The notes: a model not told the origin generated them from the letters alone. Shown: positions 12,938-30,875, counted from the stretch's first letter. The stretch: DNA of 64,000 nucleotides from an uncultured Candidatus Nitrosopumilus sp. (GCA_951812655.1 OX638319.1:1403620-1467619), one strand, 5' to 3'. Numbers and translations are program-made.

Positions 12938-14125
12938 TTAAATTTTTAAAAGGATTTTTTCATAGATTTTAGGGATTTTACCTTCAGACAAATTCTTCCG
13001 GATGTGCCACAATGTGGATTTGTTAATTCCAAATCTTTTCCTTTCTTCTGGAGTCATATTCAAAATCTTTTCTCTTAATTCCAGATTATACTTTCTGTTT
13101 ACTTTCATTTTAGGCATGACAAATTCAAATTCTTCCTTTTTCCCTACAATGAAATTAGATAACTGTTGTAGGTTATCTTGAAGAATAAATTGATATGAGT
13201 ATTGTTTACCATTCTTGTAACTATATTTAGCATTAAAGTTCGAATTAATCTTTTCAATTAATAATTTAGCAACATCTTCTCCTAACCTAGTATGATAGTT
13301 CTCCGTAATTATAAAATCAGATTTTTTAATCTTCTTTTCTTCCAATAATTGAATCACAGATACATCAATTAGCCATCTAAATAATTCTTGAACGTCGTAA
13401 ACTAACGGTGTTCTGCTCTGATTAATCTCATGCAAAAACCCGATAGAATAATCAAGACCTATTCCATTAATTCCTTTTCTAATCTCAGATTCCAATATGG
13501 CATAACCATAATTCAGCAATGCGTTAATCTCATCAGATGCATTATAATTTCTCGAATTTGATTTGTTCTTTCTTCCTGTAAACTGAAACTCTGGATTTAA
13601 TTGATTAAATATTGCAGTTAGATTCTCAAGATAAATTCCTGATATTCTTCCCTCATATGTCATCAGTTGCTTGATTAATTTTGAAATATCTTGTTTCTCA
13701 CTATTCTTCATTGTATCCAACAGAAACAAATCTTCCTTTTCTACTGCCTTTCTAATTTTGACAATATCTACAGATTCATAGAATCTTGATAATTCCTCCA
13801 ATAGATTCAGAGAATGCTCAACCTTTGCCTGTACTGTCTTCAGGGCAATCTCAAATCTAGATACAGAATCAAGGTACTTTTGGTACTGTTTTATGCGTAA
13901 TTTGCCTGATTTTGGCTGTTCAGGCATCACATTTGCCAATAATTGACCATTCCAATTCAATAATGTAACATTGATGCTGTGCTTTGAGAGCCACCTCATT
14001 GCCTCAAATGTAATGTTGCCAGTATGACCGTCAATGGTTATTCCGTCATGGTTTATCTTGTGAGGGAAAAATTCTAGTCTCATATTTTTTAATTTGTTTG
14101 TGATGATCAGTTTTCTCTTGTCCAC
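12938..14125 (-). CDS. cas1: Casposase-type Cas1 (solo copy)
   Basis: A 395-residue Cas1-fold integrase. The three catalytic positions are visible: E158 (MTYEGRIS), H232 (GFLHEIN) and D244 (LVYDVQELFR), within the Cas1 signature NALLNYGYAI. A C-terminal helix-turn-helix extension (MTPEERKRFGINKSTLWHIR), typical of casposases, ends the protein. No cas2 or CRISPR array is nearby, which argues for a transposon integrase rather than CRISPR adaptation. It starts at GTG (14123-14125), because an in-frame TAA lies upstream with no ATG. Its near-twin is at 58827. Homology between the two copies extends about 35 bp past the stop codon. Confidence 0.93.
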   Translation of the reverse strand: MDKRKLIITNKLKNMRLEFFPHKINHDGITIDGHTGNITFEAMRWLSKHSINVTLLNWNGQLLANVMPEQPKSGKLRIKQYQKYLDSVSRFEIALKTVQAKVEHSLNLLEELSRFYESVDIVKIRKAVEKEDLFLLDTMKNSEKQDISKLIKQLMTYEGRISGIYLENLTAIFNQLNPEFQFTGRKNKSNSRNYNASDEINALLNYGYAILESEIRKGINGIGLDYSIGFLHEINQSRTPLVYDVQELFRWLIDVSVIQLLEEKKIKKSDFIITENYHTRLGEDVAKLLIEKINSNFNAKYSYKNGKQYSYQFILQDNLQQLSNFIVGKKEEFEFVMPKMKVNRKYNLELREKILNMTPEERKRFGINKSTLWHIRKNLSEGKIPKIYEKILLKI

Positions 14126-15561: not shown

Positions 15562-15564
15562 TTT

Positions 15565-16293
15565 CTAATCCTGATTCCCACTCTCATAAATTGCGCAAAG
15601 CTCTGGCCTGTCAATGCTGATGTGAAAATCCACCATCTTGGCATAATCATCAGACAGAACGCCGCTAAATTCACGACCAAAGCTTGTCTTGCCGCAAAAC
15701 TCTGTGTATTTTTCACCAAAATCAAAGTTGTATTTTCCAACCACTAATTCAAACTCTGATGGAACGTTTGCAATATTTGTCTCAAATTCCTTCCTTACTA
15801 TCTCTGCTATTTTTTTCTCTTCGTTTTCATCAAAGTATGACAGTTCAGGTCCAAATCTTACAGATATTTCCTGTTCAAGACTGCAAATACAGGAATTCAT
15901 GTTGGGTATGCAAGGCATAGGATTCTCTTCTGTGATTTGGTTCTTGCCAAGTCTGTTATCTTTGTAGACACTCTGGTACCAGTAATCATTGGTTCCTTCT
16001 TCTGTAATGACATGCCCACAATAGTCGGTAATTGGAGGATATGACTCCAACGACATGCCTTGCATAAACACAAGATTGTCGGGATTGTACAGAATGTTTT
16101 TTTCATCTAGTTTTGCCTTAAATTCATTTAAGGATGCATCATAGCCTATTTTTTCATAATCAACCAAACCATGTTCTGTGTACGGCAAGCCAATGCCAAG
16201 AAAGTTTTCGGTTCCGTAAAACAAAGATGAGCCAGATATCAACAATACAAGTCCGGAAACAACTGCAACCATTATCAAAATTCTATTCTTCAA
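15565..16293 (-). CDS. Membrane-anchored extracytoplasmic protein, paralogue of the 16303 gene
   Basis: A 242-residue protein with an N-terminal hydrophobic segment (KNRILIMVAVVSGLVLLISG) acting as signal or anchor. The rest is extracytoplasmic with about seven Cys. The block GKYNFDF...FCG...FSGVLSDDY...LCAI parallels GKINFDY...FCG...FSGISDRY...LCAI in the next gene upstream, so the two are paralogues. The start follows the upstream stop by 9 bp. Function unknown. Confidence 0.7.
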   Translation of the reverse strand: MKNRILIMVAVVSGLVLLISGSSLFYGTENFLGIGLPYTEHGLVDYEKIGYDASLNEFKAKLDEKNILYNPDNLVFMQGMSLESYPPITDYCGHVITEEGTNDYWYQSVYKDNRLGKNQITEENPMPCIPNMNSCICSLEQEISVRFGPELSYFDENEEKKIAEIVRKEFETNIANVPSEFELVVGKYNFDFGEKYTEFCGKTSFGREFSGVLSDDYAKMVDFHISIDRPELCAIYESGNQD

Positions 16294-16302
16294 TTTATCA
16301 TC

Positions 16303-17583
16303 CTAGTAGTCACGCCACGTCCAGTCGGAATTTTCTTCATCAAAATCATAATTCTCAATATCCAGCCTAACCTCGATATTTGTAGAGTTTGCAGGTACTT
16401 TGAATATGGAATCGGTGTAATATTGTGGGTATGGTGCTTCTGGACTTTTCACGTACGGGAATTGGATGTATCGGGATTCCTTGCCATCAACCAAAACAGA
16501 AAGTCCCAACAGTTTACCGACATTCCAGTCCTCTGATCCATAACTTTGATAATAGCTAACTCCAGTATCGCGCAACCTAATCTTCATGTAGCTGTCTTTG
16601 TCAGAAGGGATGAATTCCAATACGGTGATGCTGTTTTTTGGCTGATAGTCAACATGCTCAAGTGTGAGGTGAGACGCATAACCTAGAATCGAATGGTTAA
16701 TCGAGTTGACATAAAAATAATTTCTCTCCATGAGTCTCTCGACTGATGCAGATTTCACATGTACGGTTTCCATCCTGCTGTTTTTCCAAGTCTGCAACGA
16801 TTCATCCCGATTGGGATTCTCTTTGAATTTTATGTCATAGAGTGTAGCATCATCACCAATTGCGCATAAAGAAGACATGCTTTGATTCAATCCAAAAGAC
16901 AGGTTGCCATACCTGTCTGAAATTCCTGAAAAATACTTTGACCCCGCCATTCGTCCGTCAAACTCTCCACAAAACGACAAGACATGCTCGTCTTTGTAGT
17001 CAAAATTGATCTTTCCTATCGTGAACTGATATTCGTTCAGGTTCTCATTGCCTCTCAGGTGATGCTTTACCAAGGCAGCTGCACGCAATTCCTCATCAGG
17101 CGTAAAGTATGATTTTTCTTCTAGGAATATTTCTGCCACCCGGATTTCCAAAGGAGAGAAGCAGTCCGTGTAGTTTGATTTATGATCATCGTCTCTTGGG
17201 ATTTCGGCATATGAATTAGCATATTCTATATGGGTGCTGTTGATTGCAGTCTCTAGCCAGTAAACTTGCTTGTCTCCCTGATCAATGACATAGCCGCAAT
17301 TGTAACTCCTTGGCTGATACGTTAAAATGTGAAATCCGCGATTAAGCACGATATCTTGACTATCCACATCGGCCCCAAAGTCACGTAGCATCTTCTCAAA
17401 AATGTCTGGCATTATTTTCGCTATGAGCAAGTCGTAGTCGATGTTTCCACCATGGGTGAATTCTATATTGTGATTTTCAGTATATGGTACATAGTCTCTG
17501 CCAGATGGTGAATAGTCATCTGATTGTGCATGTGCCAACCCAAAGAATCCCGCAAAAATTAAGAAAATGAGAAAATGTTTCAT
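16303..17583 (-). CDS. Secreted protein, extended paralogue of the 15565 gene
   Basis: A 426-residue protein with a clear signal peptide (KHFLIFLIFAGFFGLAHAQ). The first ~240 residues match the neighbouring paralogue. The C-terminal ~180 residues are a second beta-rich domain with no Cys, ending in an acidic aromatic tail (NSDWTWRDY). It is first in the minus-strand trio and starts at the edge of the repeat-rich intergenic region, so its promoter probably lies within or beside those repeats. Confidence 0.7.
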   Translation of the reverse strand: MKHFLIFLIFAGFFGLAHAQSDDYSPSGRDYVPYTENHNIEFTHGGNIDYDLLIAKIMPDIFEKMLRDFGADVDSQDIVLNRGFHILTYQPRSYNCGYVIDQGDKQVYWLETAINSTHIEYANSYAEIPRDDDHKSNYTDCFSPLEIRVAEIFLEEKSYFTPDEELRAAALVKHHLRGNENLNEYQFTIGKINFDYKDEHVLSFCGEFDGRMAGSKYFSGISDRYGNLSFGLNQSMSSLCAIGDDATLYDIKFKENPNRDESLQTWKNSRMETVHVKSASVERLMERNYFYVNSINHSILGYASHLTLEHVDYQPKNSITVLEFIPSDKDSYMKIRLRDTGVSYYQSYGSEDWNVGKLLGLSVLVDGKESRYIQFPYVKSPEAPYPQYYTDSIFKVPANSTNIEVRLDIENYDFDEENSDWTWRDY

Positions 17584-17639
17584 TGTTTGATTAAGTGAAT
17601 TATCAGAAGTTCATAAAGAATTCCATCCTTGGTACTGTT

Positions 17640-18140
17640 TTTGTTGATTTTTGACATCTTCCAGTTATCTTTTCGGTATCAATTCGGTATTTGATTTATC
17701 AATTCGGTAGCAACCTAGTTTTGGAACTTATCGATTAGGTATCTTTTCGACACACAAAATTATCAATTCGGAGAATCAAATTATCAATTCGGAGAGAAAT
17801 TTTATCAGTTTGGTATCAATTCGGTGGAATAATTTATTTTTCCGGTAACAGATTCTATCTTTCCGGTGTAACTTTCTATTTTTTTGGGGAAATATTCCGA
17901 AACGCCGGATTGATAATTATCTTTTCGGGGGGAAAATAATTTTTCAGAAATGATATTGTATATTTCTGGATTGACAATTCCGAAACTCTCGAGAGTTTGT
18001 TGATATTTTCCGAAACTTTTGATCGCAAATCTATATTTTCAATTATCAATTCGGGGATTTTGTCGAAACTTTGTCGATATTTTCCGAGAGATTGTCGAAA
18101 CTACCGGAAAGATACCGAAAAAATAATTGATCGCAATGAA
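17640..18140. repeat. Degenerate iteron-like repeat region between divergent genes
   Basis: The 773-bp gap 17584-18356 has no convincing gene. It holds at least six copies of TATCAATTCGG (starting at 17677, 17697, 17761, 17782, 17814 and 18044), variants such as TTATCTTTTCGG, one inverted copy CCGGATTGATAA (17905), and a second cluster of CCGAAAC/GTCGAAAC motifs from 17980 to 18120. Spacing is irregular. It separates the minus-strand secreted trio from the plus-strand array. It could be a multi-site operator, a replication or partition site, or decayed repeats. Confidence 0.75.
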
Positions 18141-18356
18141 TGATTTTTGAATAAATTTCAACAAATTTTACGGGAAACAAGTCAAGTAACTCACCAAACA
18201 CTCTAGATTTTATTTTGGACATGTCCAAAAATGTCCAGTTTTGTCCAAGGGTGTCCAATATTCTAAAAAATATTAATCAGGTACAGGTAATGCACAGACA
18301 ATCTGAGGGCGGAACATCAGGAGCACTTATGAGCATTCAGCCCAGAATTTTGTCGT

Positions 18357-19799
18357 ATGAAGTATGTTGTGATGCTGTTAATCCTGACAGGGTTTGTTGG
18401 AATGGCACATGCCTCACAGGACGAGGCAACACATTCCACCAGGATGTCTTTTGAGGAGCATTATGAAATTGAGATCCTGGGACTTGAAGATGAATACTCT
18501 ACAGATGAAGAATATTCTTTTGACTTTGTAATCTCAGGCTACGGGTATGGATGCGCAAACTATCAGGTGAGCTATCCTGATGGCAACGGCCTTCTCATTG
18601 GCACGGGCGCTCAATCACGATGTGCTGCTCAAACATCAATGTATGAATTTGAAATCAAATCCTTTGACAGGCATGGGACTCTTGGAAATGTCGCAATAAA
18701 AAAACCAGGGGCCTATGCTGTCACAGTAACGTTTGAAAAACCAAGCAAGTACTTTCCTACAACAGTCAACAAGGAGTTTCTTGTTGTAGACTCCCTTGAT
18801 AATAATTTCAATGAATTGACCCCGTTAAAGCAATTCAAATCGGGAGTTTTGATTGATGGAATCCAATGCAGAGAAAACTTGATCCTGATTCCAAAACATG
18901 ACAGTTCCCCGGCATGTGTGAAACCTGAAACCATTTCAAAACTCATTGAGCGAGGATGGACGACACAATCACTCGTACAGGATATTGTCATGAATACCAT
19001 GAGCAAAAAACTCGGTCCAGAATGTTCACAAAACACAATGGATGAGATAATGAGTGGAAAAATGGTTGACGAGAAATGTGCCAGATTCATCGACGAACTT
19101 TTCACTAAACGCCAGTCCGAGATGATGCGGCAAGGATATGTCTTTGATCAGGAAAGCAAGTCCTGGACCAAGGAAGGCCATCCGGACATGTTTATGAATA
19201 TCGCAGACTATTACCAGCAAAATCTAAAGAACTTGGAACCTAAACCCCTCTCTGAGATTAATCGAAGCTGTATGACATTAGAGCAAAGCAAGGAAACAGC
19301 TCCTTTTTTCAAAGTACCGTCTCATTTACCTGATGGCTATTCTATGAAATGCTCCATGTCTGGAACGCCTTCAGAATCTTACATCATTTATCACAACAAG
19401 GATGTTTCTGATGGATGGCTGGGAAAACTGCATGAACTGATTGATGGTGGTGCAATTTTCATTCATCAGGTAGATGAAAGAAATATTGTAGACAAAGAAA
19501 AGTATGCCACATTTGGTTCACCAGAGCAACGAATGCAGGATACGTATGATGATGTGATGATACAGAATCCATCATTGCAGCCACAGTTGATACGAATTAA
19601 TGAAATACTGGCATACGCAGTTGACTCTTGTACTGACTGCGGCATGCAGACTGCAGACTTTGCAGATGGAACCCTTATTCAAAAATCAACTTCGACTGAA
19701 ACTAAAATCAAATTCATTGATGAAGATGGTGTTACATACATGCTCAAAACAACTTTGCCGTTAGACGAGTTAATCTTGGTGGCAGAATCATTTCAATGA
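18357..19799 (+). CDS. Secreted protein with thaumarchaeal Cys module
   Basis: A 480-residue protein with signal peptide KYVVMLLILTGFVGMAHA. It has an N-terminal Ig-like beta domain to about 150, the shared module at about 155-205 (PLKQFKSGV, IQCRENLILI, PACV, KLIERGW), a helical middle with SHOCT-like spacing and Cys, and a C-terminal domain (residues about 300-480) with one CTDCGM pair. No C-terminal anchor. It is the first gene of the long plus-strand array. Confidence 0.75.
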   Translation: MKYVVMLLILTGFVGMAHASQDEATHSTRMSFEEHYEIEILGLEDEYSTDEEYSFDFVISGYGYGCANYQVSYPDGNGLLIGTGAQSRCAAQTSMYEFEIKSFDRHGTLGNVAIKKPGAYAVTVTFEKPSKYFPTTVNKEFLVVDSLDNNFNELTPLKQFKSGVLIDGIQCRENLILIPKHDSSPACVKPETISKLIERGWTTQSLVQDIVMNTMSKKLGPECSQNTMDEIMSGKMVDEKCARFIDELFTKRQSEMMRQGYVFDQESKSWTKEGHPDMFMNIADYYQQNLKNLEPKPLSEINRSCMTLEQSKETAPFFKVPSHLPDGYSMKCSMSGTPSESYIIYHNKDVSDGWLGKLHELIDGGAIFIHQVDERNIVDKEKYATFGSPEQRMQDTYDDVMIQNPSLQPQLIRINEILAYAVDSCTDCGMQTADFADGTLIQKSTSTETKIKFIDEDGVTYMLKTTLPLDELILVAESFQ

Positions 19800-19817
19800 T
19801 TGCATGAGAAATAGAAA

Positions 19818-20471
19818 ATGAAGACTAGGCTTTTGATAATTATCGTGTTTTTTGTTATTTTTGCAGGATATGCAAAACTAGAGGTTTACGGGCATGGAAC
19901 GGGACCTAAATTCAGCACAGGATTCTACAGGATTGAAGATGAGGCATTTTCAAAAACAACAGTGTCTGTAGGGGAATCCTTCTTCATAAATGGTACTCTT
20001 GTATCTTTGGTAGAAAAAAACATCCAGGGAAAAATGGATGTTAGATTCGATTATGCAAGTAACGAGTCATGGTTTGTTAATCTTTTAAAATCTAATTTTC
20101 TCTGTCTTGCTCAAGATATGTGTGCCAAACCAATCTATGTGGTACCAAACCAAAATCACTGGTACATGGATATCACGTCCAAACCAGACACATATGTGTT
20201 GGAAGGAAACAACATTTTCTCGTATTCAATAAAAATGACTTCTTTAAAGGGCGGAACATATCATATCCACACAGATCCCAATGCAGACATCTCGTCTTTT
20301 AGGCATATTGGTCCAGGCCAGACAATAATCGTAGAAGGTTCACAAGACATTACCGAGGGGGAATTGTTTGAATTTTACATTCCTTATGCGATAGGTTTTG
20401 TTTTAATGATAATCGGTTTAGTGTTGGGGGTTGTTTTCATGTACAGGAGAAAACAGAGAAAAATAAAATGA
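19818..20471 (+). CDS. AmoB-like copper-domain membrane protein
   Basis: A 217-residue protein: signal peptide ending near residue 25, a cupredoxin-like domain, then one C-terminal helix (about 188-208) and a basic tail. The mature N-terminus would begin HGTGP, followed by RIEDEAFSKTTVSVGESFF and INGTLVSLVE. Later it has GGTYHIHT and IGPGQTIIVEG. These blocks, in this order, are those I associate with archaeal ammonia monooxygenase subunit B. Candidate copper ligands are H26 plus H149 and H151 (HxH). It also has a Cys pair (C96, C102) and an insertion not expected in AmoB. The neighbours are secreted proteins, not amoA or amoC, so it is probably a diverged paralogue. It overlaps the next start by 4 bp. 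Confidence 0.6.
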   Translation: MKTRLLIIIVFFVIFAGYAKLEVYGHGTGPKFSTGFYRIEDEAFSKTTVSVGESFFINGTLVSLVEKNIQGKMDVRFDYASNESWFVNLLKSNFLCLAQDMCAKPIYVVPNQNHWYMDITSKPDTYVLEGNNIFSYSIKMTSLKGGTYHIHTDPNADISSFRHIGPGQTIIVEGSQDITEGELFEFYIPYAIGFVLMIIGLVLGVVFMYRRKQRKIK

Positions 20472-21832
20472 AAATTAAATTTTTGATAATCCTTGCATCT
20501 GTCGGTTTGTTTATTTCAATTCCAAATACATTTGCATCTGAACCTCAACTCATTCAAATTTTTCAACCCGATATTGAATTGCTGCCTGATGAGACGATCG
20601 AATATGGGGAGTCTTTCACAATACGTGCATGGTTGCAATCCTATGATGACAGACCTGAAGGTTTGGGATTTTTTGTAGATGTCTTGGATCCTCACCACAA
20701 TCAAGTTGACTCTACTTTATGGTTTGCAAGACAGGACTTTGTTTATGAATTTGACACCATGCATCCTGCTTACAATGTCACTCAAAGCGGCAACTATCTT
20801 GTTAAACTTGAAAGAGCAGACTTTATGGAGCGTACTGGAAGTTTTCCAAAGACAATCTCATTTGAAATTCTTTTTCCTGAACCCGAACAGGATAGGCCTT
20901 TAGGAAAAAATTGCGGGCCTGGAACATTACTGGAAGAGGGAATATGCGTAGTGGCTAAAGATGATAAAAAAGCAGAATCTTCTTCAAGATGGGGTACGTA
21001 TCAGGACATCACATCGCCTCTAAAACAAATCAAATCAGGCGTTGCTCTAGTTGATGTGCAATGCAGTGAAGGAAAATCTCCTGCTTACAAATACAATAGA
21101 ATGAGTGTCGCATGTGTTTCAGAAGAAACTTTGGTGGAATTGTGGGATAGAGGATGGGCGACAATGAGATTTTACACAGATGATGATACCTCATCGCATG
21201 CATTGTGTAATAATTACGAGGGAAAATGGCATCCCGAGCACAACGGATGCAGAGGGGATATTTCTGATTTACAGTGCTCTCTGATGGGAGGAAAATTTGT
21301 TGACAATCTCAAGATATGCTATAACGACATATGCCCTAAAAACAAGACATACACATTATGTGTTACAAATTCAAATTACCCCGAGCCTGAACCTCCATCC
21401 ACATCAACACAATGCAAACCTGGCCTTCCACCATTTCATTCGGATTTTTATTTAGACCAAGAACTTTGCAAATGGAAACTAATTCCAGAACCCATTCCAA
21501 ATGAAGTTATCCCATATGTCTGGAATAGTCATTTGCAAAAAAAGCAAATTGACTTTTCACCTAAAGACAGATCTTACTTTAATTTTGGCGAAGGGTTTGA
21601 TCCTGAAAATGAAAACAGAGCCTGTTCTCCAATAATTTTAACGAATAAAACTGAACTTTACATTTCATCAACATTTACCATTGAGCCTTTTGAAATAATC
21701 AATACAGTAACTAGTGAGATACAGCATGACGATTGCCATAAAATTTGGAAGGCCGAGACATTGCTTGTAGAGCCCAGTCCGGAACTGGGTGCATGGTTGA
21801 AAAATTATTGGGAAAAAGAAAATGAAGACTAG
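20468..21832 (+). CDS. Secreted multi-Cys protein with shared module
   Basis: A 454-residue protein with signal peptide (KIKFLIILASVGLFISIPNT). A beta domain (30-140) is followed by CGPGTLLEEGICV and the shared module (SPLKQIKSGV, VQCSEG, VACVSEETLVELWDRGW), then a Cys-rich linker with Pro/Glu (PEPEPPSTS) and a final domain. The module here has drifted (LWDRGW instead of LIERGW). The start overlaps the stop of the AmoB-like gene and its own stop overlaps the next start, so translation is probably coupled. Confidence 0.72.
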   Translation: MKIKFLIILASVGLFISIPNTFASEPQLIQIFQPDIELLPDETIEYGESFTIRAWLQSYDDRPEGLGFFVDVLDPHHNQVDSTLWFARQDFVYEFDTMHPAYNVTQSGNYLVKLERADFMERTGSFPKTISFEILFPEPEQDRPLGKNCGPGTLLEEGICVVAKDDKKAESSSRWGTYQDITSPLKQIKSGVALVDVQCSEGKSPAYKYNRMSVACVSEETLVELWDRGWATMRFYTDDDTSSHALCNNYEGKWHPEHNGCRGDISDLQCSLMGGKFVDNLKICYNDICPKNKTYTLCVTNSNYPEPEPPSTSTQCKPGLPPFHSDFYLDQELCKWKLIPEPIPNEVIPYVWNSHLQKKQIDFSPKDRSYFNFGEGFDPENENRACSPIILTNKTELYISSTFTIEPFEIINTVTSEIQHDDCHKIWKAETLLVEPSPELGAWLKNYWEKENED

Positions 21833-22262
21833 ATACAAAATCATACTCATTACAGTTTGTGGATATTTTGGAGTATTTTTTGGCCCTGTAACTGCAAGCA
21901 ATGTCTACTGTGATTTTATTTCACAAGAAACGTGCACATCAAGAATCACCGGAGTTGTCTTGCCACCGCTCAATCTGATAATGCCAAGCTTGCCAAGTGA
22001 TGATTGCATTGTAGACAATGATGGGGTGATGGAGCCTTGCTATGATGAAGCAGGCCTTTTGGAATGGCCGTTTCCCCCTCGCATGGAAGAACATCCAGAA
22101 AGAAGTTGTGATGAGCAATGTACTGATGTTGGAAAACCTCCTCTTTGTACCGGTGATAGAACCGCATGTTCTAATCAAGATGCCAATCTGTGTGATCCTT
22201 CAGGATGGGAATGTGGAGACAATGAAAGGATATTTGAGGAGATTAGGGGAGATGAAGGCTAG
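21822..22262 (+). CDS. Small secreted Cys-rich protein
   Basis: A 146-residue protein with a hydrophobic N-terminus (KTRYKIILITVCGYFGVFFG). The mature part has about 12 Cys (CDEQCTDVG, CTGDRTACS), suggesting a disulfide-bonded knot. It overlaps both neighbours by 11 bp. It shares the MKTR start cassette of the array. Function unknown. Confidence 0.62.
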   Translation: MKTRYKIILITVCGYFGVFFGPVTASNVYCDFISQETCTSRITGVVLPPLNLIMPSLPSDDCIVDNDGVMEPCYDEAGLLEWPFPPRMEEHPERSCDEQCTDVGKPPLCTGDRTACSNQDANLCDPSGWECGDNERIFEEIRGDEG

Positions 22263-22719
22263 GCTTTTGATAATATTTACAATCTCGATTACAATTGTGG
22301 CACTTTTTACAGTGAATTCTTTTATGAATTTGTACCATTACGGAGAATATCTCAAGATGGATGATGGCCATGTATGGCACTGCAGCTCTGATGGTCACAA
22401 ACAGTTTTGCGACAACACATCAATTAGGATGATGGAACTGTTTGGGCTTCTGCCTGACAGTGAGGAGCCCCCTTACCAACTTGAGAAAATAGAAGGCTAT
22501 GCGATTGACTATGGTAGAGAAGTAAAACATCTGCCATTTGCCGATGTTTGCACTGATCCGATGAAGATAATTTTACTGTCGTATTCCAACATATCTTCAA
22601 CGGATGAGGAATTCACAATTGAGGATGTGAAATTACCTTTTGGAATGAACTTAGAAGATTTTGAAAGATGCGCATTTGAAACATCATTTACAAAAGAAAG
22701 ATCCAACATGGTTCCTTGA
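22252..22719 (+). CDS. Membrane-anchored extracytoplasmic protein
   Basis: A 155-residue protein. The ATG at 22252 gives the array-typical start MKARLLIIFT and an N-terminal hydrophobic helix; a longer reading from 22042 would run through the preceding gene in another frame and lacks a signal. The mature part has four Cys (HCSSDGHKQFC, DVC, RC). It is the last gene of its sub-block: about 145 bp follow before the next gene. Confidence 0.62.
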   Translation: MKARLLIIFTISITIVALFTVNSFMNLYHYGEYLKMDDGHVWHCSSDGHKQFCDNTSIRMMELFGLLPDSEEPPYQLEKIEGYAIDYGREVKHLPFADVCTDPMKIILLSYSNISSTDEEFTIEDVKLPFGMNLEDFERCAFETSFTKERSNMVP

Positions 22720-22864
22720 GCGGGATTTGTAAAATGAGTTCAAATCCATAACTATGAAAAAATCAGTGTGTTTTTTCAACCCTATCCAGGGGATGTCCTA
22801 GATTCTCTTTATCGATAAAAAGTAGAATACTTTATGAACTATCTATAATTCATTTATTCAGATT

Positions 22865-24724
22865 ATGAAATTTTTTGTAATTTTATTGATTTTTCTAGGC
22901 TCTGCCATGCTTGCACCCAATGCATTTGGCTCTGAATTATTTTATGGAACATCAAGTATTGAAAGATTCCCGCAAGTTATAGATTCTGATGAACCACAAA
23001 TAATTGAAATCAAATTCCAATATCAAGAGGGGCCTTATTCACTTAACATTGAACCCCTCTTTGTTGTTAGTCCCAAAGAGGCAGTTCCATTTGTACAAAT
23101 TGAATTTGATGAAGTAGAAGGCATACCTCGCATGTCAGTTAAAAGAATGATTGGCACTATTACAGTAGATCAAGACATCACAAGTGAGAAAATATTTCTA
23201 AACATTTCTTATAATGGAACATATGCAGTAGCTCCTCCACAACCATTCAAAAGTTCATGGAGTGATACTATGATAATTGATATTGAAAAAAATCTTGTTC
23301 CTGAACCTGATGACAATCTTAATTTAGAAAAAGAGCCCTTTTGCGGGGAAGGAACTACATACACTGAAGGCATATGCGTTGTCGATGAAATAGACGATTC
23401 TACAGAAACATCTGAAAAATGGGGAAAATATTCATCTACAGTGTTTGAATCTCCACTAAAGCAATTCAGATCAGAAACTACATTTAATGAAACTCAATGC
23501 AGGGACTCTTTGATTCTCGTAATGAGACACAATGGCTCTCCCGCATGTGTTAATTTTGATACAATTCCAAAACTGATTCAAAGAGGATGGATAGACACAG
23601 ATCCAAGGGCAGAAGCAGACAAGAATATTCCAAAATATTTGTGTGAACTGTATGGAGGCGGATTCTTTGATGAAACTGGTGAATGCATGGATGTGGAAAG
23701 TTCTTACAAATGTCAAATGTCGGGTGGAGAATGGGACGGCAAGTGCATGATCCCAAACTATATGGGAAAAGGAATTGGAACAGAGGCGGACTTTGATCCT
23801 AATTTTAAACCTGATTGCATTGACGGCAAGTGCATGTGTCCTGATGGTTTTTCATACAACCAAGTCTTGTTCAAGTGTGTAATCTCATGTGAAGAGGATT
23901 TAGTGTATAATGGATATACTGATTCGTGCACTACAGAGTTTGAATTAAAGTATCATGGATTTTGCAATGATAGTTTCACATATTCTCCATCATCCCATGA
24001 ATGTTATTCTGATAATGATACATCACAAATCCCCCTAAAAGATCCCCCAAGAACTCCTCCTCCAGAACCAGAACCTACATACACCCTTACTGAAGTTAAC
24101 TGCTTTACAAATCAAGTAATCTACAATGATGAATGCATTTACGTGCTAAACCCAACTGATGAATTTCCAAAAAAAATGACCAAATATTTCTCGATGGTTG
24201 ATGATGTAATCGTTAATTTTTGTGAAATAAAACCTGTAACTGAATATGATGGAGAGGACAATAGTGGCGTTACTTTAGACAGATGTTTTGAGATTTCTCA
24301 TTATACAATATCTGATGTCAATGCTATAAAATTTCAAAGTACGACTCCTCCAACTTGGATAAATATACAAATGGAAAACTTGACAAGATATGTAGAACTT
24401 GGTTCTTCACCAACATTTAGAATAATAGAATCTGGATGGGGAAATGGTTGTACTTCTCCTACCTTAGAAGTATATCACATGAAACAAGAATTTGATACTG
24501 ATCCTCCCGTTGATGATCTTATCTATAAACATAGGATTGTGTATTCTTGTCCATATTATGAGCCGATATACCCACCTCAAGATGTTCTAAGAATTTGGGA
24601 CGAGTCTGATTTTCCAAATTTTCCAATTTGTGAAGAAGAAGGAAAATATTTGATAATTGGGGATTCGGGATATGAACGATTAGCATTGTATTATTATTAT
24701 TGTGGAATAGAAAATGAGAACTAG
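22865..24724 (+). CDS. Large secreted multi-Cys protein with shared module
   Basis: A 619-residue protein with signal peptide (KFFVILLIFLGSAMLAPNAF). It has a beta domain (25-150), then CGEGTTYTEGICV, the shared module (SPLKQFRSET, TQCRDSLILV, PACV, KLIQRGW), a run of EGF-like Cys spacings (CMSGG..., CIDGKCMCPDGFSYN), a Pro linker (RTPPPEPEPTY), and a C-terminal Cys domain. It starts a new transcription block after a 145-bp gap with AT-rich promoter-like sequence. Confidence 0.72.
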   Translation: MKFFVILLIFLGSAMLAPNAFGSELFYGTSSIERFPQVIDSDEPQIIEIKFQYQEGPYSLNIEPLFVVSPKEAVPFVQIEFDEVEGIPRMSVKRMIGTITVDQDITSEKIFLNISYNGTYAVAPPQPFKSSWSDTMIIDIEKNLVPEPDDNLNLEKEPFCGEGTTYTEGICVVDEIDDSTETSEKWGKYSSTVFESPLKQFRSETTFNETQCRDSLILVMRHNGSPACVNFDTIPKLIQRGWIDTDPRAEADKNIPKYLCELYGGGFFDETGECMDVESSYKCQMSGGEWDGKCMIPNYMGKGIGTEADFDPNFKPDCIDGKCMCPDGFSYNQVLFKCVISCEEDLVYNGYTDSCTTEFELKYHGFCNDSFTYSPSSHECYSDNDTSQIPLKDPPRTPPPEPEPTYTLTEVNCFTNQVIYNDECIYVLNPTDEFPKKMTKYFSMVDDVIVNFCEIKPVTEYDGEDNSGVTLDRCFEISHYTISDVNAIKFQSTTPPTWINIQMENLTRYVELGSSPTFRIIESGWGNGCTSPTLEVYHMKQEFDTDPPVDDLIYKHRIVYSCPYYEPIYPPQDVLRIWDESDFPNFPICEEEGKYLIIGDSGYERLALYYYYCGIENEN

Positions 24725-26159
24725 ATTATTGATAATTCCTGCATTGATGACATTACTATTTAGTTCTGTTGCATTTACACCACAACAATCTGATGCATTG
24801 TCTTGTGGAGTTGGACCTTTTGTTGAATCATTTGAAAGACATGATTTATTGTTGCATGGAATTTTAATTGAAAAACATATCGATAGAACTGAAGTTGGAA
24901 ATTCAAGAGATACCCCTTTGAGTACGCTGGTATTTGAGACGATATCGGTCTACAAAGGGGAACATCAAGACCAATTTACAATAAATGCAAATCTTTCTTG
25001 GGATGACTGGTATGTTGTAGGTGCAGAATACGTCCTCTTTGCAGAAAAATATGGCGATAGTTATCTGCGAGAATTGTGTGTGGGCCAATACATTGCATTT
25101 CCACAAATAATTCAATTCCTGGATAGTTATCCTTTGAATGTAACATCGGGAATTGGAATTCATTCCTTGTATGACTTAGTAACTGGTGATGATAAAATCA
25201 GACTTGATAATTTAATGAGTTTGTACAATGACATGAATCGAGGAAATACGGGACTAATCATGATGAAAAATATGAAAGACAAAAACAATTACAGTTGTGA
25301 TTTTCAAACAGATGTAAAACAAGCAGAAAAATATCTAATAAACGATAATCATCTTGCATCAAATATTTTAGAAGATTCTCCAGAGTACACTGTTTCTTCA
25401 GAGTACACTTTGGATACAAATCCGCCGACTGCAATCATTACATTTGAGGGGGATACACTAAAGGCAGAAGTATCTGTGTTAAACGGCAAAGAATTTGGAA
25501 ACTGTTTTTACGTTTACAATTCTAAGTTGATAAACAAAATCACAGGTGAAACAGAAAGAAATCATGATCTACTCCAAAGATTATGTAACGGTGAAAATGC
25601 TTACGAGTTAATCCCTGATCTATGTCCGATTAAAAGAACGTCTACTCTTCCAATAAATTCAGATCATGGGGGCGGTTATGTTAATCCTGAATGTCAGAAA
25701 GGACATGAACTGGCAAATGGAATCTGTCAGTCTGTAAATTATAATCATGGTGGTGGTGGTGGTGGTAGTGGCACTGTTAACCTGAATTCTGAGTTATCGC
25801 CATCATATGCTTTGGATTTTATGGGTACTTCATTTTATCGTGTAATTTTACCGCTTGCAGCTTTGTTTGCAGGTGTTGCAGCAGCATTTCTTGCCACATA
25901 TTTTATTCTAAAAAGAAAAAAAATCCCATCAAGACCTTACATGGCTCTGATGTTGGCAGGAGTATTGATGTTTTTTGGAATCCCTAATCTTACCTCGTCT
26001 TTGGAATCAATTTCAGTTATTTTGTCTCAACCTGAGCAAGCCATGAGATGGGTTTTTAATTTTCAGTTTATTCCACGATTAATATCAATCAGTATAGTAT
26101 CAGTTGCAGCTGTTTTACTGTACAGATCCTCAGTGATTAGGAAATTGATAAGGAAGTGA
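24714..26159 (+). CDS. TIMP/NTR-like domain protein with C-terminal helices
   Basis: A 481-residue protein: signal peptide, then an NTR/TIMP-like domain beginning LSCGVGPFVESFERHDLLLHG with the later VFETISVYKG and YVLFAEKY strands. A middle domain follows, then a Gly-rich linker (NHGGGGGGSG), and three C-terminal transmembrane helices (about 385-410, 420-440, 450-470). Archaeal NTR domains are of unknown function. The start overlaps the previous gene by 11 bp and the stop overlaps the next start by 4 bp. Confidence 0.7.
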   Translation: MRTRLLIIPALMTLLFSSVAFTPQQSDALSCGVGPFVESFERHDLLLHGILIEKHIDRTEVGNSRDTPLSTLVFETISVYKGEHQDQFTINANLSWDDWYVVGAEYVLFAEKYGDSYLRELCVGQYIAFPQIIQFLDSYPLNVTSGIGIHSLYDLVTGDDKIRLDNLMSLYNDMNRGNTGLIMMKNMKDKNNYSCDFQTDVKQAEKYLINDNHLASNILEDSPEYTVSSEYTLDTNPPTAIITFEGDTLKAEVSVLNGKEFGNCFYVYNSKLINKITGETERNHDLLQRLCNGENAYELIPDLCPIKRTSTLPINSDHGGGYVNPECQKGHELANGICQSVNYNHGGGGGGSGTVNLNSELSPSYALDFMGTSFYRVILPLAALFAGVAAAFLATYFILKRKKIPSRPYMALMLAGVLMFFGIPNLTSSLESISVILSQPEQAMRWVFNFQFIPRLISISIVSVAAVLLYRSSVIRKLIRK

Positions 26160-26632
26160 AGACTAGACTTTGGATGCTTGTTGGAATATTTTTTCTCCCT
26201 TTGATTATTCCACAGAGTTTTGCCATGTGTGCCATAAACGAGGATTGGCCTGATGCACCATGTCTTGATACAATCTCTAATGATTGTAAAGACGCAGAAG
26301 GCGTTGGAAAATGGGGCGAATATTATTACCTGAAAGGCGATAGTTTGATGGAGACAAAAAAATCTGAAATGCTAAATGCATTTGATGCTGGCACATTGGA
26401 AGATTGGATATCAAAATCCCACGAGAACTCTAACGTGTGGAGATATTATCACCTCAAAGGAGAAATCCCCGATGAACGAGGTGAGTATTATGATGTTGAC
26501 AAATGTATCCCCGCATTTCACATACCTGGAAATCCTATTTGGTCAATCCAATATTCATCCTGGTTAATTCTTGCATTGTTGGCGAGTATTTCCTCGATGA
26601 TCGTTGTTGTATTTTGGAGAAAAAGAAAATGA
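26156..26632 (+). CDS. Secreted, C-terminally anchored small protein
   Basis: A 158-residue protein starting at GTG (KTRLWMLVGIFF follows), with a signal peptide and a C-terminal helix followed by WRKRK. Two similar segments, VGKWGEYYYLKGD and VWRYYHLKGEIPD, suggest an internal duplication. The stop overlaps the start of the next gene (ATGA). The WRKRK ending is shared with the gene ending at 28060. Confidence 0.6.
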   Translation: MKTRLWMLVGIFFLPLIIPQSFAMCAINEDWPDAPCLDTISNDCKDAEGVGKWGEYYYLKGDSLMETKKSEMLNAFDAGTLEDWISKSHENSNVWRYYHLKGEIPDERGEYYDVDKCIPAFHIPGNPIWSIQYSSWLILALLASISSMIVVVFWRKRK

Positions 26633-27078
26633 GGAATAGAAACAAAATAATTGTAATAATTGCAGTAATTTCTTTTATCGGCATATTCCTACTTGAAATT
26701 TCAGACAGTCATCTCAATCGTATAATCCACGACATGGATAAATCCAATTCTATTAAAAATTATGAAATGCTAGAAACTGCTTGCAACGGTATCCATGGGA
26801 AACTAGATGGGGAATGCTTCATTAATGCATTTGATGAATGCAAATCTGCAAAAATAAAACAGATGAGCTCCACATTTGAGGGGGATCCGATATTTTATTA
26901 TGCCCACATCATACTGTCGGAACCTTGCACCATTCATTTTGCCATTGACACTTCACAAGATACATGGGGAGGAATAACCAAAGGATTCCATCAAAAAACA
27001 TGTACTGATGCACAACTTGACAAACATGCAATAAACCTCCAATGTGATGATGGACAACAGATGATCCCATTACGGTAG
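26629..27078 (+). CDS. Membrane-anchored extracytoplasmic protein
   Basis: A 149-residue protein. The ATG at 26629 sits in the conserved junction (GGAGAAAAAGAAAATGA) and gives MRNRNKIIVIIAVISFIGIF as N-terminal anchor. The mature part has six Cys. The upstream in-frame extension to 26503 lies inside the preceding gene and is rejected. Function unknown. Confidence 0.6.
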   Translation: MRNRNKIIVIIAVISFIGIFLLEISDSHLNRIIHDMDKSNSIKNYEMLETACNGIHGKLDGECFINAFDECKSAKIKQMSSTFEGDPIFYYAHIILSEPCTIHFAIDTSQDTWGGITKGFHQKTCTDAQLDKHAINLQCDDGQQMIPLR

Positions 27079-27090
27079 GCAAAAAAGAAA

Positions 27091-27510
27091 ATGAAGAGTA
27101 GAAACAAAATAATTTTGATTGCAGTAATATTCATAGTTGGAATATTTGTAATAAACTCAGTCATTCCTGGAATTTTATTTAGGCAACAAGACAATCTTGG
27201 TTTGATTTTGTATACGTGCACACTTGGCATAGATCGCATGGGTCCTTTAATGCTGATTACCTACAACAATGGAACCCATACAATTGATGAGAATTCATGT
27301 GCATGGAGAAACAATACGACATCCAAATCTTCTACTGGCGAATATCAGGAAATTAATAAAATGTCCTGTCCTGAACTTATAGAAAGACATACTTCTGGAG
27401 AGCCATATGCAAACAAAGAAAATAGAATATTTGCACAAGAGAAAATCTCAAACTGTAACTTTGTGGATAATTGGTCTGAAGCACAGAGAAAGGTTGAAGA
27501 TTGGAGATGA
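27091..27510 (+). CDS. Membrane-anchored extracytoplasmic protein
   Basis: A 139-residue protein with N-terminal anchor MKSRNKIILIAVIFIVGIFV, close to that of the preceding gene although the mature domains differ. Four Cys; one block (NCNFVDNWSEA) resembles CADIVDNWSYL in the gene at 28623. It lies 12 bp downstream of the previous stop with GAAAATGAAGAG at the start. Confidence 0.6.
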   Translation: MKSRNKIILIAVIFIVGIFVINSVIPGILFRQQDNLGLILYTCTLGIDRMGPLMLITYNNGTHTIDENSCAWRNNTTSKSSTGEYQEINKMSCPELIERHTSGEPYANKENRIFAQEKISNCNFVDNWSEAQRKVEDWR

Positions 27511-27514
27511 GAAA

Positions 27515-28060
27515 ATGAAAATAGGAATTTTGATTTTATTGTTGATTATTCTTACAATTTTCCAAGTTCATGATTCCTTTGCCTGCTCCTGCTCGTCACA
27601 CCCTGACTTTCTGATGGCTTGGATGGAATCTGATGGGGCATTTCAGGGCACGGTCAAAGGTATTCTGACTGACGAGGGTCCGCGAAAAGTCATTTTTGAC
27701 ATACATCATGTACAAAAAGGCAATTATCCATATGGCAATTACACACTGGGGGATTCAAGTATAATCCACCACGGTAAAGACATGATACGAGTGAGCAGCT
27801 GCAGTGTTGACTACAAAATAGGAGAAACATATCAGGTATTTGCGTACGGTGGAAGTCAAATGACGGGTGAGACGGGTATTTGCAGCACAAAGCAGATTTC
27901 AGGTTTTGAGGAATATTCTCATGAGGATGGCAATGGTCAAATTCAACAACACAGAGAAGATTACAACTTTCTTGCCCAATACAGCCTCTTCTCATTAATC
28001 ATGCCTGTAGCTATTGCAGCAATAGTTGCGGGAATTGTAATTTGGAGAAAAAGAAAATGA
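27515..28060 (+). CDS. TIMP/NTR-like single-domain protein with C-terminal anchor
   Basis: A 181-residue protein: signal peptide, then FACSCSSHPDFLMAWMESDG, FQGTVKGI, VIFDIHHVQKG, SSCSVDYKIGETYQVFAYGG and GICSTKQI. This is the TIMP/NTR pattern (N-terminal CxC, two further Cys, GExY strand). A C-terminal helix with WRKRK anchors it. It is the clearest NTR protein of the array. The ATG at 27515 is chosen over an upstream reading because it starts the signal peptide. Confidence 0.72.
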   Translation: MKIGILILLLIILTIFQVHDSFACSCSSHPDFLMAWMESDGAFQGTVKGILTDEGPRKVIFDIHHVQKGNYPYGNYTLGDSSIIHHGKDMIRVSSCSVDYKIGETYQVFAYGGSQMTGETGICSTKQISGFEEYSHEDGNGQIQQHREDYNFLAQYSLFSLIMPVAIAAIVAGIVIWRKRK

Positions 28061-28626
28061 CGAATTATTTTGAAAACTTGCGTAAAAGAGTCATCTGGAT
28101 TGCCGTTGGCATACTTTGCTATTTTTTTGCAATCATACCCGTGTCTCTGATACCTCATATTCTATTGCCTGTAACGGACATGAGTTATTTCTCAGGCTTT
28201 TCATTATACTCACTTGTAAGCATTGGGTTGTTGTTTTATTTTGTTTATCGTGCACTGTTCAAAGTCAATCCGTCATGGATGCCGTTGGTAAGAAAATACA
28301 AGAAAACAATGCTTGTTTTTGTCACAATAATTCCGACATTATTTATCGTATTGCCCAGTGGCTTAATCGTGCCAGAATGGGAACAGGGCCAATGCAGCAT
28401 ATCATCTAGCATGGTCATGCAAGATGGAACTTTTCAGGGAAGCACCACGTCTCAAACCATGTCGGATATATCTGAGTGTCTTGATCACTGCTACTATGAC
28501 GATTTTAATCCCAAACTGGAAAAGACATGCCAGTTTAGAGGATTGTTTGACTCTGCTCCTACAGTGATAACCAGTGAATCCGCAGAATATGACGGCAAAA
28601 TAGCATTTGATGGAAAAATAAGATGA
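28057..28626 (+). CDS. Multi-helix membrane protein with Cys-rich C-terminal domain
   Basis: A 189-residue protein starting at the ATGA overlap with the previous stop. Three hydrophobic helices (about 11-33, 42-63 and 80-102) precede an extracytoplasmic domain with five Cys (CSISSS, CLDHC, TCQF). It lacks the MKTR cassette but keeps the GGAGAAAAAGAAAATGA junction. The stop overlaps the next ATG. Confidence 0.6.
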   Translation: MTNYFENLRKRVIWIAVGILCYFFAIIPVSLIPHILLPVTDMSYFSGFSLYSLVSIGLLFYFVYRALFKVNPSWMPLVRKYKKTMLVFVTIIPTLFIVLPSGLIVPEWEQGQCSISSSMVMQDGTFQGSTTSQTMSDISECLDHCYYDDFNPKLEKTCQFRGLFDSAPTVITSESAEYDGKIAFDGKIR

Positions 28627-29774
28627 AGGCGTGGATTTTGATAATCATAGGAATTGTTTTTGCATCTGCAGGATTAGGATCACTTGCATATGTCACGTCT
28701 GTTCAAAACCAGTGCGATTCCTTGCTTGGAGATACACACTATCCCCGTTCGCTGACCTTTTGGAACTGTTTGGATTATCTGAGGATGATTGAACCGATTC
28801 CAGAATCGCCCATGGAATCAGGACCTATTGAAATTACTGGCGTCATTAATCACTGGGAACCAATAGATGGTCCTGCTTATGCATTGATTGCAGAGGAGCC
28901 AGTTAACGCACAAGTCAGCAATCCGGGGATTTTTCTTTATGGAGACATGCTACGACCACACATGAAAGACAAAACGGTAACAGTCAAGGGCACATTCATC
29001 TCAAACTATGTTGAATACAAGGCATCTTTGGGGTTAAGACTATTTGGTGGAGATCCTCGCACTGCAACCATCTTGGTAGATGAGATTCAAATCAACTCAG
29101 AATCACAAATATTCCAAATGGAATCTCAAACCAAAAACATAGAGTGTGCTGTAGAATACGATAAAATAATGAGCATCCCTTCATGTCCACCGCGTGATGA
29201 CGGGACTATTTGTGAGCCTACACCGGTGATTGACAGGTTTATTTTTCCAGATAAAGTGAATGAATCCTTTAGAAAAATGCATTGTGCGGACATTGTGGAT
29301 AACTGGTCCTACCTTCCTGAACATCTGGAAGGATTAATGGACGGGCAAATAGACTGGAATCTTGTATCAAGTATCCATCATGAAAAACCAACTTTTGACA
29401 TATACGGACTGAATGAAAAATTTCAGCCAATCAAGGTGGGACAAAAAATACGTCTGTCTGTCAGTTATTGGGATGAGATAGAGTGCTCAGATTATACAGT
29501 GAAGATCACTGACAAGTTAACAGGAGATACCATATATGATAAACAATATCATTATGATTGCAAGTCTAAGGACATAGAACGGTATGGCAAGATGATGTTA
29601 AGGCCTCTGTCTGGAATTGACTATAGATTGTCTCTTCCGGGAGAATATGTGTTTGAAATGAGTAATGATGACATGAAAATTTCTGAGGAATTTTTCGTAG
29701 AATGTACTTCTGGCGGATGTGAGTTTCTAACAGATGAACAGCTTGAAGGGAGACAAACATACAGATTGGATTAA
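28623..29774 (+). CDS. Secreted or anchored two-domain protein
   Basis: A 383-residue protein with N-terminal hydrophobic helix (KAWILIIIGIVFASAGLGSL). Residues about 60-160 have an OB-like pattern (ITGVINHWEPIDGPAYALIA, TVTVKGTFIS). The C-terminal third (about 260-383) is an Ig-like beta domain (VGQKIRLSVSYWD, LPGEYVFEMSND) with a CTSGGC pair. Function unknown. Confidence 0.62.
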   Translation: MKAWILIIIGIVFASAGLGSLAYVTSVQNQCDSLLGDTHYPRSLTFWNCLDYLRMIEPIPESPMESGPIEITGVINHWEPIDGPAYALIAEEPVNAQVSNPGIFLYGDMLRPHMKDKTVTVKGTFISNYVEYKASLGLRLFGGDPRTATILVDEIQINSESQIFQMESQTKNIECAVEYDKIMSIPSCPPRDDGTICEPTPVIDRFIFPDKVNESFRKMHCADIVDNWSYLPEHLEGLMDGQIDWNLVSSIHHEKPTFDIYGLNEKFQPIKVGQKIRLSVSYWDEIECSDYTVKITDKLTGDTIYDKQYHYDCKSKDIERYGKMMLRPLSGIDYRLSLPGEYVFEMSNDDMKISEEFFVECTSGGCEFLTDEQLEGRQTYRLD

Positions 29775-29775
29775 A

Positions 29776-30141
29776 ATGAAAACAAGACTTTTGATAATTT
29801 CAATTGCAGTAATTGTGGCAATGATAGTTACAATCATGTCGGCATCATATTTGACATATGAACCGTACAATCCTTTAGAGAAAATTGCATGTGAGAATAA
29901 GGGTGGAATATATGATCTGGATCATGGGACAGGTGGAAGGGACGATATCAGGACATGGTATTGCCAGATGCCTGTTAGTGACGAAGGAAAGGAATGCACT
30001 GATTCATCTCAGTGTATCGAGATATGTATTGCAGAAAATGAAATGGATGCAACAGGCATGTGTACAGGATACTATAATGCTGGATGCTATTTCTGGGAAA
30101 TGCGTAATGACAAGGCACATGAGGGTTGCATACTCAACTAG
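29776..30141 (+). CDS. Membrane-anchored Cys-rich protein
   Basis: A 121-residue protein with the array start MKTRLLIISIAVIVAMIVTI as N-terminal anchor. The mature part has eight Cys, including CTDSSQCIEICI and GMCTGYYNAGC, so it is disulfide-rich. One base separates it from the preceding stop codon. Function unknown. Confidence 0.6.
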   Translation: MKTRLLIISIAVIVAMIVTIMSASYLTYEPYNPLEKIACENKGGIYDLDHGTGGRDDIRTWYCQMPVSDEGKECTDSSQCIEICIAENEMDATGMCTGYYNAGCYFWEMRNDKAHEGCILN

Positions 30142-30150
30142 GATTGTAAA

Positions 30151-30624
30151 ATGAAAACCACCATTTTGATAATTATTGTTGGACTATCTGTTGCAGGAAT
30201 TTTTGGAGGATTATACACTGCAAATATGATCAAAAACATAGAAGACCAAAAAGCACAAGAAGAATGGCGTGAAAATAGAGCAGAATTTTTCTCAACAATA
30301 AAGAATAACAAGACAAACTCTGGACAGATTGCAGACGAAGTTAATTCCTCAATTTGGGTTTCACTGCCTATGACTTCGCACAGTTACCCTTGGCATAGCT
30401 CAAACCATCCAGAGTATGATCTGCATTTTGAGGAATACAAAAGCACGGTAAAAGACTATGACCCATCTGCTCCGCAAGATATTATGCTGTGGTTTCATTA
30501 TTTGATAGTAAGATACTACGAAGGTCAGGGAATTACCGTATCTGATGTCACGACAAGCTGGGACAGTTCGTTGAAAGGGATTGATGTGGATGGAACTCCT
30601 CATCTTGGGCAACCTGGCATTTGA
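30151..30624 (+). CDS. Membrane-anchored extracytoplasmic protein
   Basis: A 157-residue protein with N-terminal anchor MKTTILIIIVGLSVAGIFGG and no Cys. The sequence ends LGQPGI at a TGA that overlaps a TTG in the next frame. See the following ORF for a possible frameshift continuation. Confidence 0.6.
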   Translation: MKTTILIIIVGLSVAGIFGGLYTANMIKNIEDQKAQEEWRENRAEFFSTIKNNKTNSGQIADEVNSSIWVSLPMTSHSYPWHSSNHPEYDLHFEEYKSTVKDYDPSAPQDIMLWFHYLIVRYYEGQGITVSDVTTSWDSSLKGIDVDGTPHLGQPGI

Positions 30625-30875
30625 AAATATCTCCTTCTGATCTGGGCTATTTTTTGGATGATGGCTTTAGTGACTCCAAGGTGTTTTCTTTTTGTGGTGA
30701 GGACGGTCTTGATTCCAAAAGCAGTTTGAATAAGAACAATTCAACCCACATCTGGGACGAAAATGAATGTCAATGGCACAAAATAGAAAATGCAGAAAGA
30801 GATGCCAAATTAGCTGCTGGATACAAACTGTATCATAGTGTGGGATGGCTGTTTTCATTTATGGAAGAAAACTGA
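30621..30875 (+). CDS. Possible frame-shifted continuation or small separate ORF
   Basis: 84 codons open from a TTG that overlaps the TGA of the previous gene (TTGA). There is no signal peptide, unlike every other member of the array, but the composition (FSFCGEDG, ENECQWHKIE) looks like an extracytoplasmic domain. It is either translated by coupling or is the displaced C-terminus of the previous protein after a one-base shift. Confidence 0.35.
   Translation: MKISPSDLGYFLDDGFSDSKVFSFCGEDGLDSKSSLNKNNSTHIWDENECQWHKIENAERDAKLAAGYKLYHSVGWLFSFMEEN

Follow-up and report, generated by a model that had tools for sequence, protein, structure and literature searches.

Genes for secreted and membrane-anchored proteins in an archaeon of the genus Nitrosopumilus lie in what are probably integrase-free cassette arrays, in which whole genes appear, from sequence comparison, to be reshuffled by homologous recombination within a short adapter. 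This adapter is conserved as DNA, is used in all three reading frames, and stands between genes whose neighbors have been swapped, with breakpoints lying inside it.

In the proposed unit, a conserved promoter-like module and a leader gene would head a polycistronic row whose genes encode secreted or membrane-anchored proteins, with consecutive genes joined by one adapter of ~35 nt. The adapter is composed of a GAG at -12 to -10 (a possible ribosome-binding site), a TAG at -6, an ATGA whose TGA is at +1, and an ACTAG whose TAG is at +8, and it includes the opening codons of the signal peptide that follows (MKTRLLII). An upstream gene would halt in any frame and the ribosome could restart at the ATG, presumably by translational coupling, so that any two cassettes could be joined regardless of frame. 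Because the junctions are near-identical DNA, one gene could be inserted, deleted, or replaced by homologous recombination between them, with its neighbors unharmed. General homologous recombination of the RadA type would be the agent, and a variable cell surface or secretome would be the benefit.

Organization of the arrays

The window is a stretch of 64,000 nucleotides, positions 1403620-1467619 of contig C1 in a complete 1.67-Mb genome (G000) of a Nitrosopumilus-genus archaeon. For one array gene, the closest relative with a name (82% protein identity) is found on contig C45 of Nitrosopumilus MAG OFTM383 (G105), and the genus is assigned on this basis. A preliminary description of window positions 18357-30875 counted at least ten plus-strand genes with MKTRLLII-like starts. 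Junction-like DNA is in fact carried by 12 starts (ATG or GTG) in this interval: 19818, 20468, 21822, 22252, 24714, 26156, 26629, 27091, 27515, 28623, 29776, and 30151. The interval spans two plus-strand units, led by the genes at 18357 and 22865, and the array continues past it with a third, divergent unit on the minus strand, led from 17583. The features are as follows.

14218-17583, minus: divergent sister unit (leader 16303-17583, junction-type gene 15565-16293, gene 14218-15561)
17584-17633, minus: promoter-like module of the sister unit, heading leader 16303-17583
18307-18356, plus: promoter-like module of unit 1, aacatcaggagcacttatgagc...gtcgt then ATG; related to the leader elements, match weaker than at 22818
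18357-19799, plus: leader-type gene of unit 1 (MKYVVM...), secreted, WING-49 (NF058652, E=3.6e-20)
19806-19844, plus: junction 1 (ATG 19818), score 26 on the junction scale
19818-20471, plus: cassette, AmoB-like secreted protein, C-terminal TM segment, tail RKQRKIK-stop
20468-21832, plus: cassette, WING-49 domain, tail KENED-stop read from the next junction
21822-22262, plus: cassette, MKTRYKII type, overlapping the upstream gene by 11 nt
22252-22719, plus: last cassette of unit 1, with a 76% amino acid homolog at G000:1300945 among other neighbors
22818-22864, plus: promoter-like module of unit 2, AGAATACTTTATGAAC...TTCAGATT then ATG; leader-element match
22865-24724, plus: leader-type gene of unit 2, WING-49 domain, tail ENEN-stop
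24702-24740, plus: junction (ATG 24714), upstream TAG at +8
24714-26159, plus: cassette, 84% identical to a gene on G105:C45 with other neighbors
26156-26632, plus: cassette, GTG start, TM anchor, tail RKRK-stop
26629-27078, plus: cassette, MRNRNKII, homolog in G105:C28
27091-27510, plus: cassette, MKSRNKII, homolog in G096
27515-28060, plus: cassette, CSC-type secreted domain, TM anchor, tail RKRK-stop
28057-28626, plus: cassette lacking the MKTR head (MTNYFENLRKR)
28623-29774, plus: cassette, MKAWILII
29776-30141, plus: cassette, MKTRLLIIS
30151-30624, plus: cassette, MKTTILII
30621-30875, plus: small ORF ending the row, TTG start, weak

In leader genes, the start (MKYF, MKHF, and similar) is unlike that of junction genes and is preceded by a conserved upstream element, and the gene after the leader is a junction gene in most cases. 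This promoter-like element, seen for example at window positions 22818-22864 and 17584-17633, comes in two clade-specific forms. One, ctttatgaac...ttagtcatatt-ATG, is found in G000, G013, G083, and G105, and the other, acatcagaagcacttttcaatga...tttcatac...-ATG, in G064, G066, G095, and G096. We read the element as a putative promoter that precedes the leader gene. Such a module and leader-gene start for each unit were absent from the preliminary description. The homolog of the 22865 leader at G000:1501255 begins with a junction-type start instead. Short direct repeats (AATTATCAATTCGGAGA and others) occupy the gap between the divergent units at 17665-18087.

The junction element and its occurrence

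The junction is ~35 nt long, with the consensus GAGAAATAGAAAATGAARACTAGRCTTTTGATAATT. In a scan of 244 kb around the window that allowed up to 8 mismatches, 43 matches were found over the two strands versus 3 for the reversed sequence. The motif falls in three islands of the genome, at ~1.298-1.316, 1.420-1.434, and 1.499-1.514 Mb, so that sister islands lie ~110 kb upstream and ~75 kb downstream of the window array. With at most 3 mismatches, the 25-nt core AAATGAARACTAGRCTTTTGATAAT is present in 45 of 95 genus genomes, and half of the genus genomes lack it at this threshold, which counts against the explanation given above; the reversed-pattern control gave 0 in every genus genome. Copies of the 25-mer number 17 in G000, 28 in G096, 29 in G013, and 83 in G105, the maximum. 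Genomes outside the genus, in a 200-genome sample of the phylum, hold at most 3 copies each. Viral carriage of the cassettes was considered and rejected, as the exact 25-mer had no match in IMG/VR contigs. Literature searches found no description of such a junction.

A stop and restart in three frames

For a gene that arrives in frame 0, the stop is the TAG at -6, followed immediately by AAA-ATG. A gene arriving in frame 1 stops at the TGA of ATGA at +1 and ends in (R)K(R)K-stop, and one arriving in frame 2 stops at the TAG of ACTAG at +8 and ends in ENEN-stop, NED-stop, and the like. Among 288 junction genes with a same-strand upstream neighbor, the stop of that neighbor occupies +1 (92 genes), +8 (53), or -6 (35), together 180; the 396 non-junction genes from these stretches give 42 for +1, at most 4 for +8, and 5 for -6. 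Stops in all three frames are present at 113 of 307 junctions versus 37 of 624 controls.

The claim that stops overlap starts holds for the +1 TGA and the +8 TAG. In the window, the ATGA overlap precedes 20468, 26156, 26629, 28057, and 28623, and the 11-nt overlap at +8 precedes 21822, 22252, and 24714. Three genes had also been described as ending in similar RKRK tails. Two do so: GGAGAAAAAGAAAATGA, at 26616 and 28044, encodes RKRK-stop in the genes ending at 26632 and 28060. The third, ending at 20471, has the tail RKQRKIK-stop. Similar DNA, GGGAAAAAGAAAATGA at 21808, is read in another frame as EKENED-stop. Since RKRK and EKENED come from similar DNA in different frames, the tails are frame readings of one DNA element and not one protein motif. 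With a stop for each of the three upstream frames, the tails are explained and a joint no longer depends on frame, a point absent from the preliminary description. From this pattern the junction reads as a stop/restart adapter, in which an upstream gene is predicted to end whatever its frame.

Stop/start overlaps are a general coupling device in archaea, and a review of coupled genes lists enriched overlaps of -4, -1, and -8 nt, a set in which the 11-nt overlap used here is absent (PMC12548453). It could be that the adapter is kept solely as a termination-reinitiation signal, that genes move by ordinary transfer or duplication, that only intergenic breaks survive, and that the junctions are not recombination sites. 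The upstream GAG and the stops in every frame fit such a signal. We regard this account as unlikely on the evidence of the codons and breakpoints described below.

Conservation as DNA

Codon use was compared in nine genomes for genes picked by an amino acid rule only, with other signal-peptide-like genes of the same sequence stretches as background. Leu6 is TTG in 113 of 126 genes (background 0.28, P=4e-47) and Ile7 is ATA in 94 of 106 (background 0.27, P=1e-40). Leu5 is CTT in 66/89 (0.21), Thr3 is ACT in 90/100 (0.40), Ser3 is AGT in 17/22 (0.13), and Arg4 is AGR in 117/117 (0.76). With one representative for each of 39 mature-domain clusters, conservation was strongest over 34 nt, from -12 to +22, and weaker beyond. 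The clusters were made by single linkage at E 1e-5 from 156 junction genes; one of 91 genes is probably chained through shared sub-domains such as WING-49, and the count of truly unrelated families is uncertain.

The junction is therefore conserved at the level of DNA. All of these starts are hydrophobic N-termini beginning with MK, and signal-peptide constraint plus chance could in principle make them alike. This is scarcely credible: the junctions are far more alike than such constraint predicts, the codons are nearly fixed, the conserved block includes -12 to -1, which is outside the coding part, and the MKYF signal-peptide starts of the same islands use different DNA.

The codons also speak against the adapter being only a termination-reinitiation signal, as CTT, TTG, and ATA are fixed although they lie past the stops. 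ACT and AGR are kept whatever frame the upstream gene uses, and the ACTAG is retained where the upstream gene ignores it and the +8 stop is not needed. The motif also heads 12 genes that have no close upstream gene, with TTG in 11/11 and ATA in 7/8. These genes are what would be expected if the junction were the binding site of a common RNA or protein regulator and the likeness reflected co-regulation. We hold that to be improbable, since it leaves the three-frame stop pattern and the breakpoints inside the junction unexplained, and an Rfam scan of the window found no family.

Exchange of cassettes and position of breakpoints

Island DNA selected by the motif, ~0.9 Mb in total over nine genomes, was compared all against all. 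At junctions aligned in both sequences lay 167 of 1040 similarity ends, which are not independent of one another; circularly shifted junctions held 0.11 on average (maximum 1 in 100 shifts), and 809 other ORF starts held 27. Gene order is far from conserved. Homologous junction genes had homologous neighbors in 8 of 313 comparisons. Non-junction genes of the same islands did little better (19 of 361), so the low figure characterizes the islands. The core region surrounding the PPDK gene behaves differently, with alignments of 3.35-5.1 kb in 36 of 36 genome pairs.

In 27 swapped pairs with body identity of at least 85%, identity is 0.29-0.38 upstream of -12, where unrelated genes give 0.27-0.30, and ~0.8 or more from the ATG on. 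On the right side it stays above 0.8 to the next ATG, except for one 6-nt bin at 0.75, and reaches background by ~+70. These limits indicate that a cassette spans from junction to junction with its own stop included. Of 23 swapped pairs, 16 have kept the same stop offset and 7 have a different one. Exchange of heads, with the body kept and the signal-peptide head changed, was rejected as a general pattern: mean head identity was no lower than that of the adjoining codons, and single pairs only were suggestive.

Several cassettes are more alike between genomes than the core region is, a sign of recent exchange between species. G066 and G095 share pieces at 97, 96, and 95% (core region 82%), and G083 and G105 share one cassette at 95% (core 85%). 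The 20468 cassette is 94% identical in DNA to a gene on G105:C6 that lies in a different context (core 82% between G000 and G105). The closest pair, G013 and G061 (core 91%), have almost no island DNA in common. Within single genomes, copies at 96% stand in different contexts (G096:345051 and 378990; G066:635631 and 987714), and the 28057 cassette has a 91% DNA copy at G000:1502478-1503078, flanked by other genes. The match of the 24714 cassette to G105:C45 starts at -8 of the cassette's own junction and extends to +14 of the one after it, and the 27515 cassette has homologs in 3 other genomes with differing neighbors.

For gain and loss at the strain level, the observations are the assembly branch points of one MAG, G105. 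Here, 17 pairs of contig ends are identical over exactly 141 nt and then unrelated, and 8 of the 17 branch points are situated between -4 and +25 relative to a junction (for one of the 8, in one contig only), though junction windows make up ~0.9% of the sequence compared (131 junctions x 40 nt of 616 kb). In one example, ...ggaaaatgaagactaggcttttgataat continues as TGTCACAATT versus AGATGCAGTC. The whole MAG has 83 junctions in 2.3 Mb, and of its 92 contig ends 18 are no more than 250 nt away from a junction ATG, where ~5 are expected. By eye, three more branch points (C2/C86, C89/C90, C3/C6) lie near a ctttatgaa-like leader element. G105 is fragmented, with an estimated contamination of 8%, and its branch points may come from mixed strains of the sampled population or from very recent duplicates; with either origin, one gene end is joined to two different genes, and the break falls within the adapter.

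Breaks within genomes, between species, and at branch points thus support the earlier proposal that the junctions would let whole cassettes be added or swapped. The two conditions named beforehand as refuting it, a strictly fixed gene order and junctions no more alike than signal peptides require, were both contradicted. Where genes are packed this closely, selection against broken ones also leaves surviving breakpoints at gene ends. New joints, however, place the upstream stop inside the downstream start, at +1 or +8, which blind end-joining would rarely restore exactly, and the branch points split inside the motif after 141 identical bases; both count against a mere termination-reinitiation signal.

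What moves the cassettes

Tyrosine recombinases (PF00589) had no match in the complete 1.67-Mb genome, where 14 of 14 control genomes matched, and serine recombinases (PF00239) had none in it either; both families were rejected as movers. A folded attC-like site was likewise rejected, as junction single strands fold no better than shuffles. Solo Cas1 was rejected because its presence does not track junction number: no Cas1 match was obtained at E 1e-3 in the junction-rich G064, G095, and G118, and a single junction is present in the Cas1-rich G009. An arrangement that functions like an integron array would suit a dedicated site-specific recombinase or mobile element, integron-like or casposase-like, acting at the junction, and three solo Cas1-type genes do lie in the window or within 20 kb of it. 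Given the results above, we judge such an agent very improbable, a little more so than co-regulation.

The three Cas1-type genes (PF01867, E down to 1e-61) are at window positions 12938-14125 (minus) and 58827-60059 (minus) and at G000:C1:1481387-1482301, and are 81-84% alike in DNA. They lie beside a C5 methylase (57574-58599), a sensor-kinase-like ATPase (55348-57516), and a DUF3800 gene (11812-12561). They are possible casposon-like remnants; no clear long terminal inverted repeats were found at these loci. A 749-aa ORF at 41366-43615, with no Pfam match at 1e-3, resembles by eye a protein-primed family-B DNA polymerase and adjoins a repeat-rich ORF at 43881-44312 (TGMIDENAGLI repeats).

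The simplest mechanism that remains is general homologous recombination between adapters of 35 nt that are almost identical, and we infer it on that ground. A homology of 35 nt with mismatches is short for recombination of the RecA type, which counts against this explanation. A more specific form of it is plausible, if slightly short of an even chance: the three-frame stop/restart adapter would itself be the recombination site, with no site-specific recombinase, and secreted-protein genes from a genus-wide pool would click into promoter-led rows, giving an exchangeable surface repertoire that includes relatives of the AmoB copper domain.

Encoded proteins

The mature domains had been described as unrelated. 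This is true of most, but the products of 18357, 20468, and 22865 share a 49-aa domain (NF058652, WING-49). The cassette products belong mostly to unnamed families, and several end in a membrane segment and a basic tail. The 19818 cassette is AmoB-like: a four-copy profile matches the solved archaeal AmoB (4o65) over residues 26-175 with E=1.7e-6 and retains a histidine where the mature N-terminus probably lies. Three AmoB-like copies are found in arrays (window 19818-20471, G000:C1:1503716, and G000:C1:1310959). A separate and better PF04744 match at 260 kb is probably the true amoB, and the array protein is possibly a copper-domain paralog of ammonia monooxygenase subunit B. The CSC-type cassette at 27515 has no solved relative at a convincing E-value, and the Pfam and NCBIfam scans gave no Ig family over cut-off.

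Relation to known systems

The sequence-variable mosaic (SVM) secreted proteins of phytoplasmas have a conserved signal-peptide start, unrelated mature parts, and a location on mobile islands. The conserved start before unrelated mature parts is the feature in common. To our knowledge, SVM proteins have not been described as polycistronic junctions with stops in three frames. The casposon or solo-Cas1 element differs in that Cas1 does not accompany the arrays, junction-rich genomes being without it.

The arrays work like an integron but are not a member of that class. Like integrons, including archaeal ones (PMC9668308), they hold promoterless genes, mostly of unknown function, behind a common promoter, with single genes exchanged at a short repeated site. 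Unlike integrons, they come with no tyrosine recombinase that could be found and no folded attC, and the site is a start-codon region that doubles as a three-frame stop. In the type VII secretion system (T7SS) immunity arrays esaG and tipC, the genes of a row are multiplied, lost, and mixed through homologous recombination between conserved blocks, which in tipC lie at the 5' and 3' ends (PMC9484751). Conserved blocks at gene ends with breakpoints in them are found here as well, but those arrays are composed of paralogs of one family, whereas here mostly unrelated genes have ~35 nt in common. The VARTIG modules of Thermococcales are also lineage-specific, hypervariable archaeal loci for secreted proteins with variable downstream genes (PMC8416519). 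They are centered on an Ig protein with a variable C-terminus, whereas no large Ig-domain protein heads the module here. The survey of other archaea for VARTIG targeted Ig/CARDB proteins and reported no such junction (PMC8416519).

Significance

A junction that is independent of frame would explain both the gain of genes without an integrase and the operon expression of promoterless genes. A possible use is the building of operons from interchangeable parts. Nitrosopumilus-type archaea are among the most abundant nitrifiers of the ocean, and a large part of their variable genome has no annotation. The junction would account for rows of "hypothetical" secreted genes as one system, and a single 25-nt motif would serve as a handle for finding every cassette and measuring how they are shuffled in populations.
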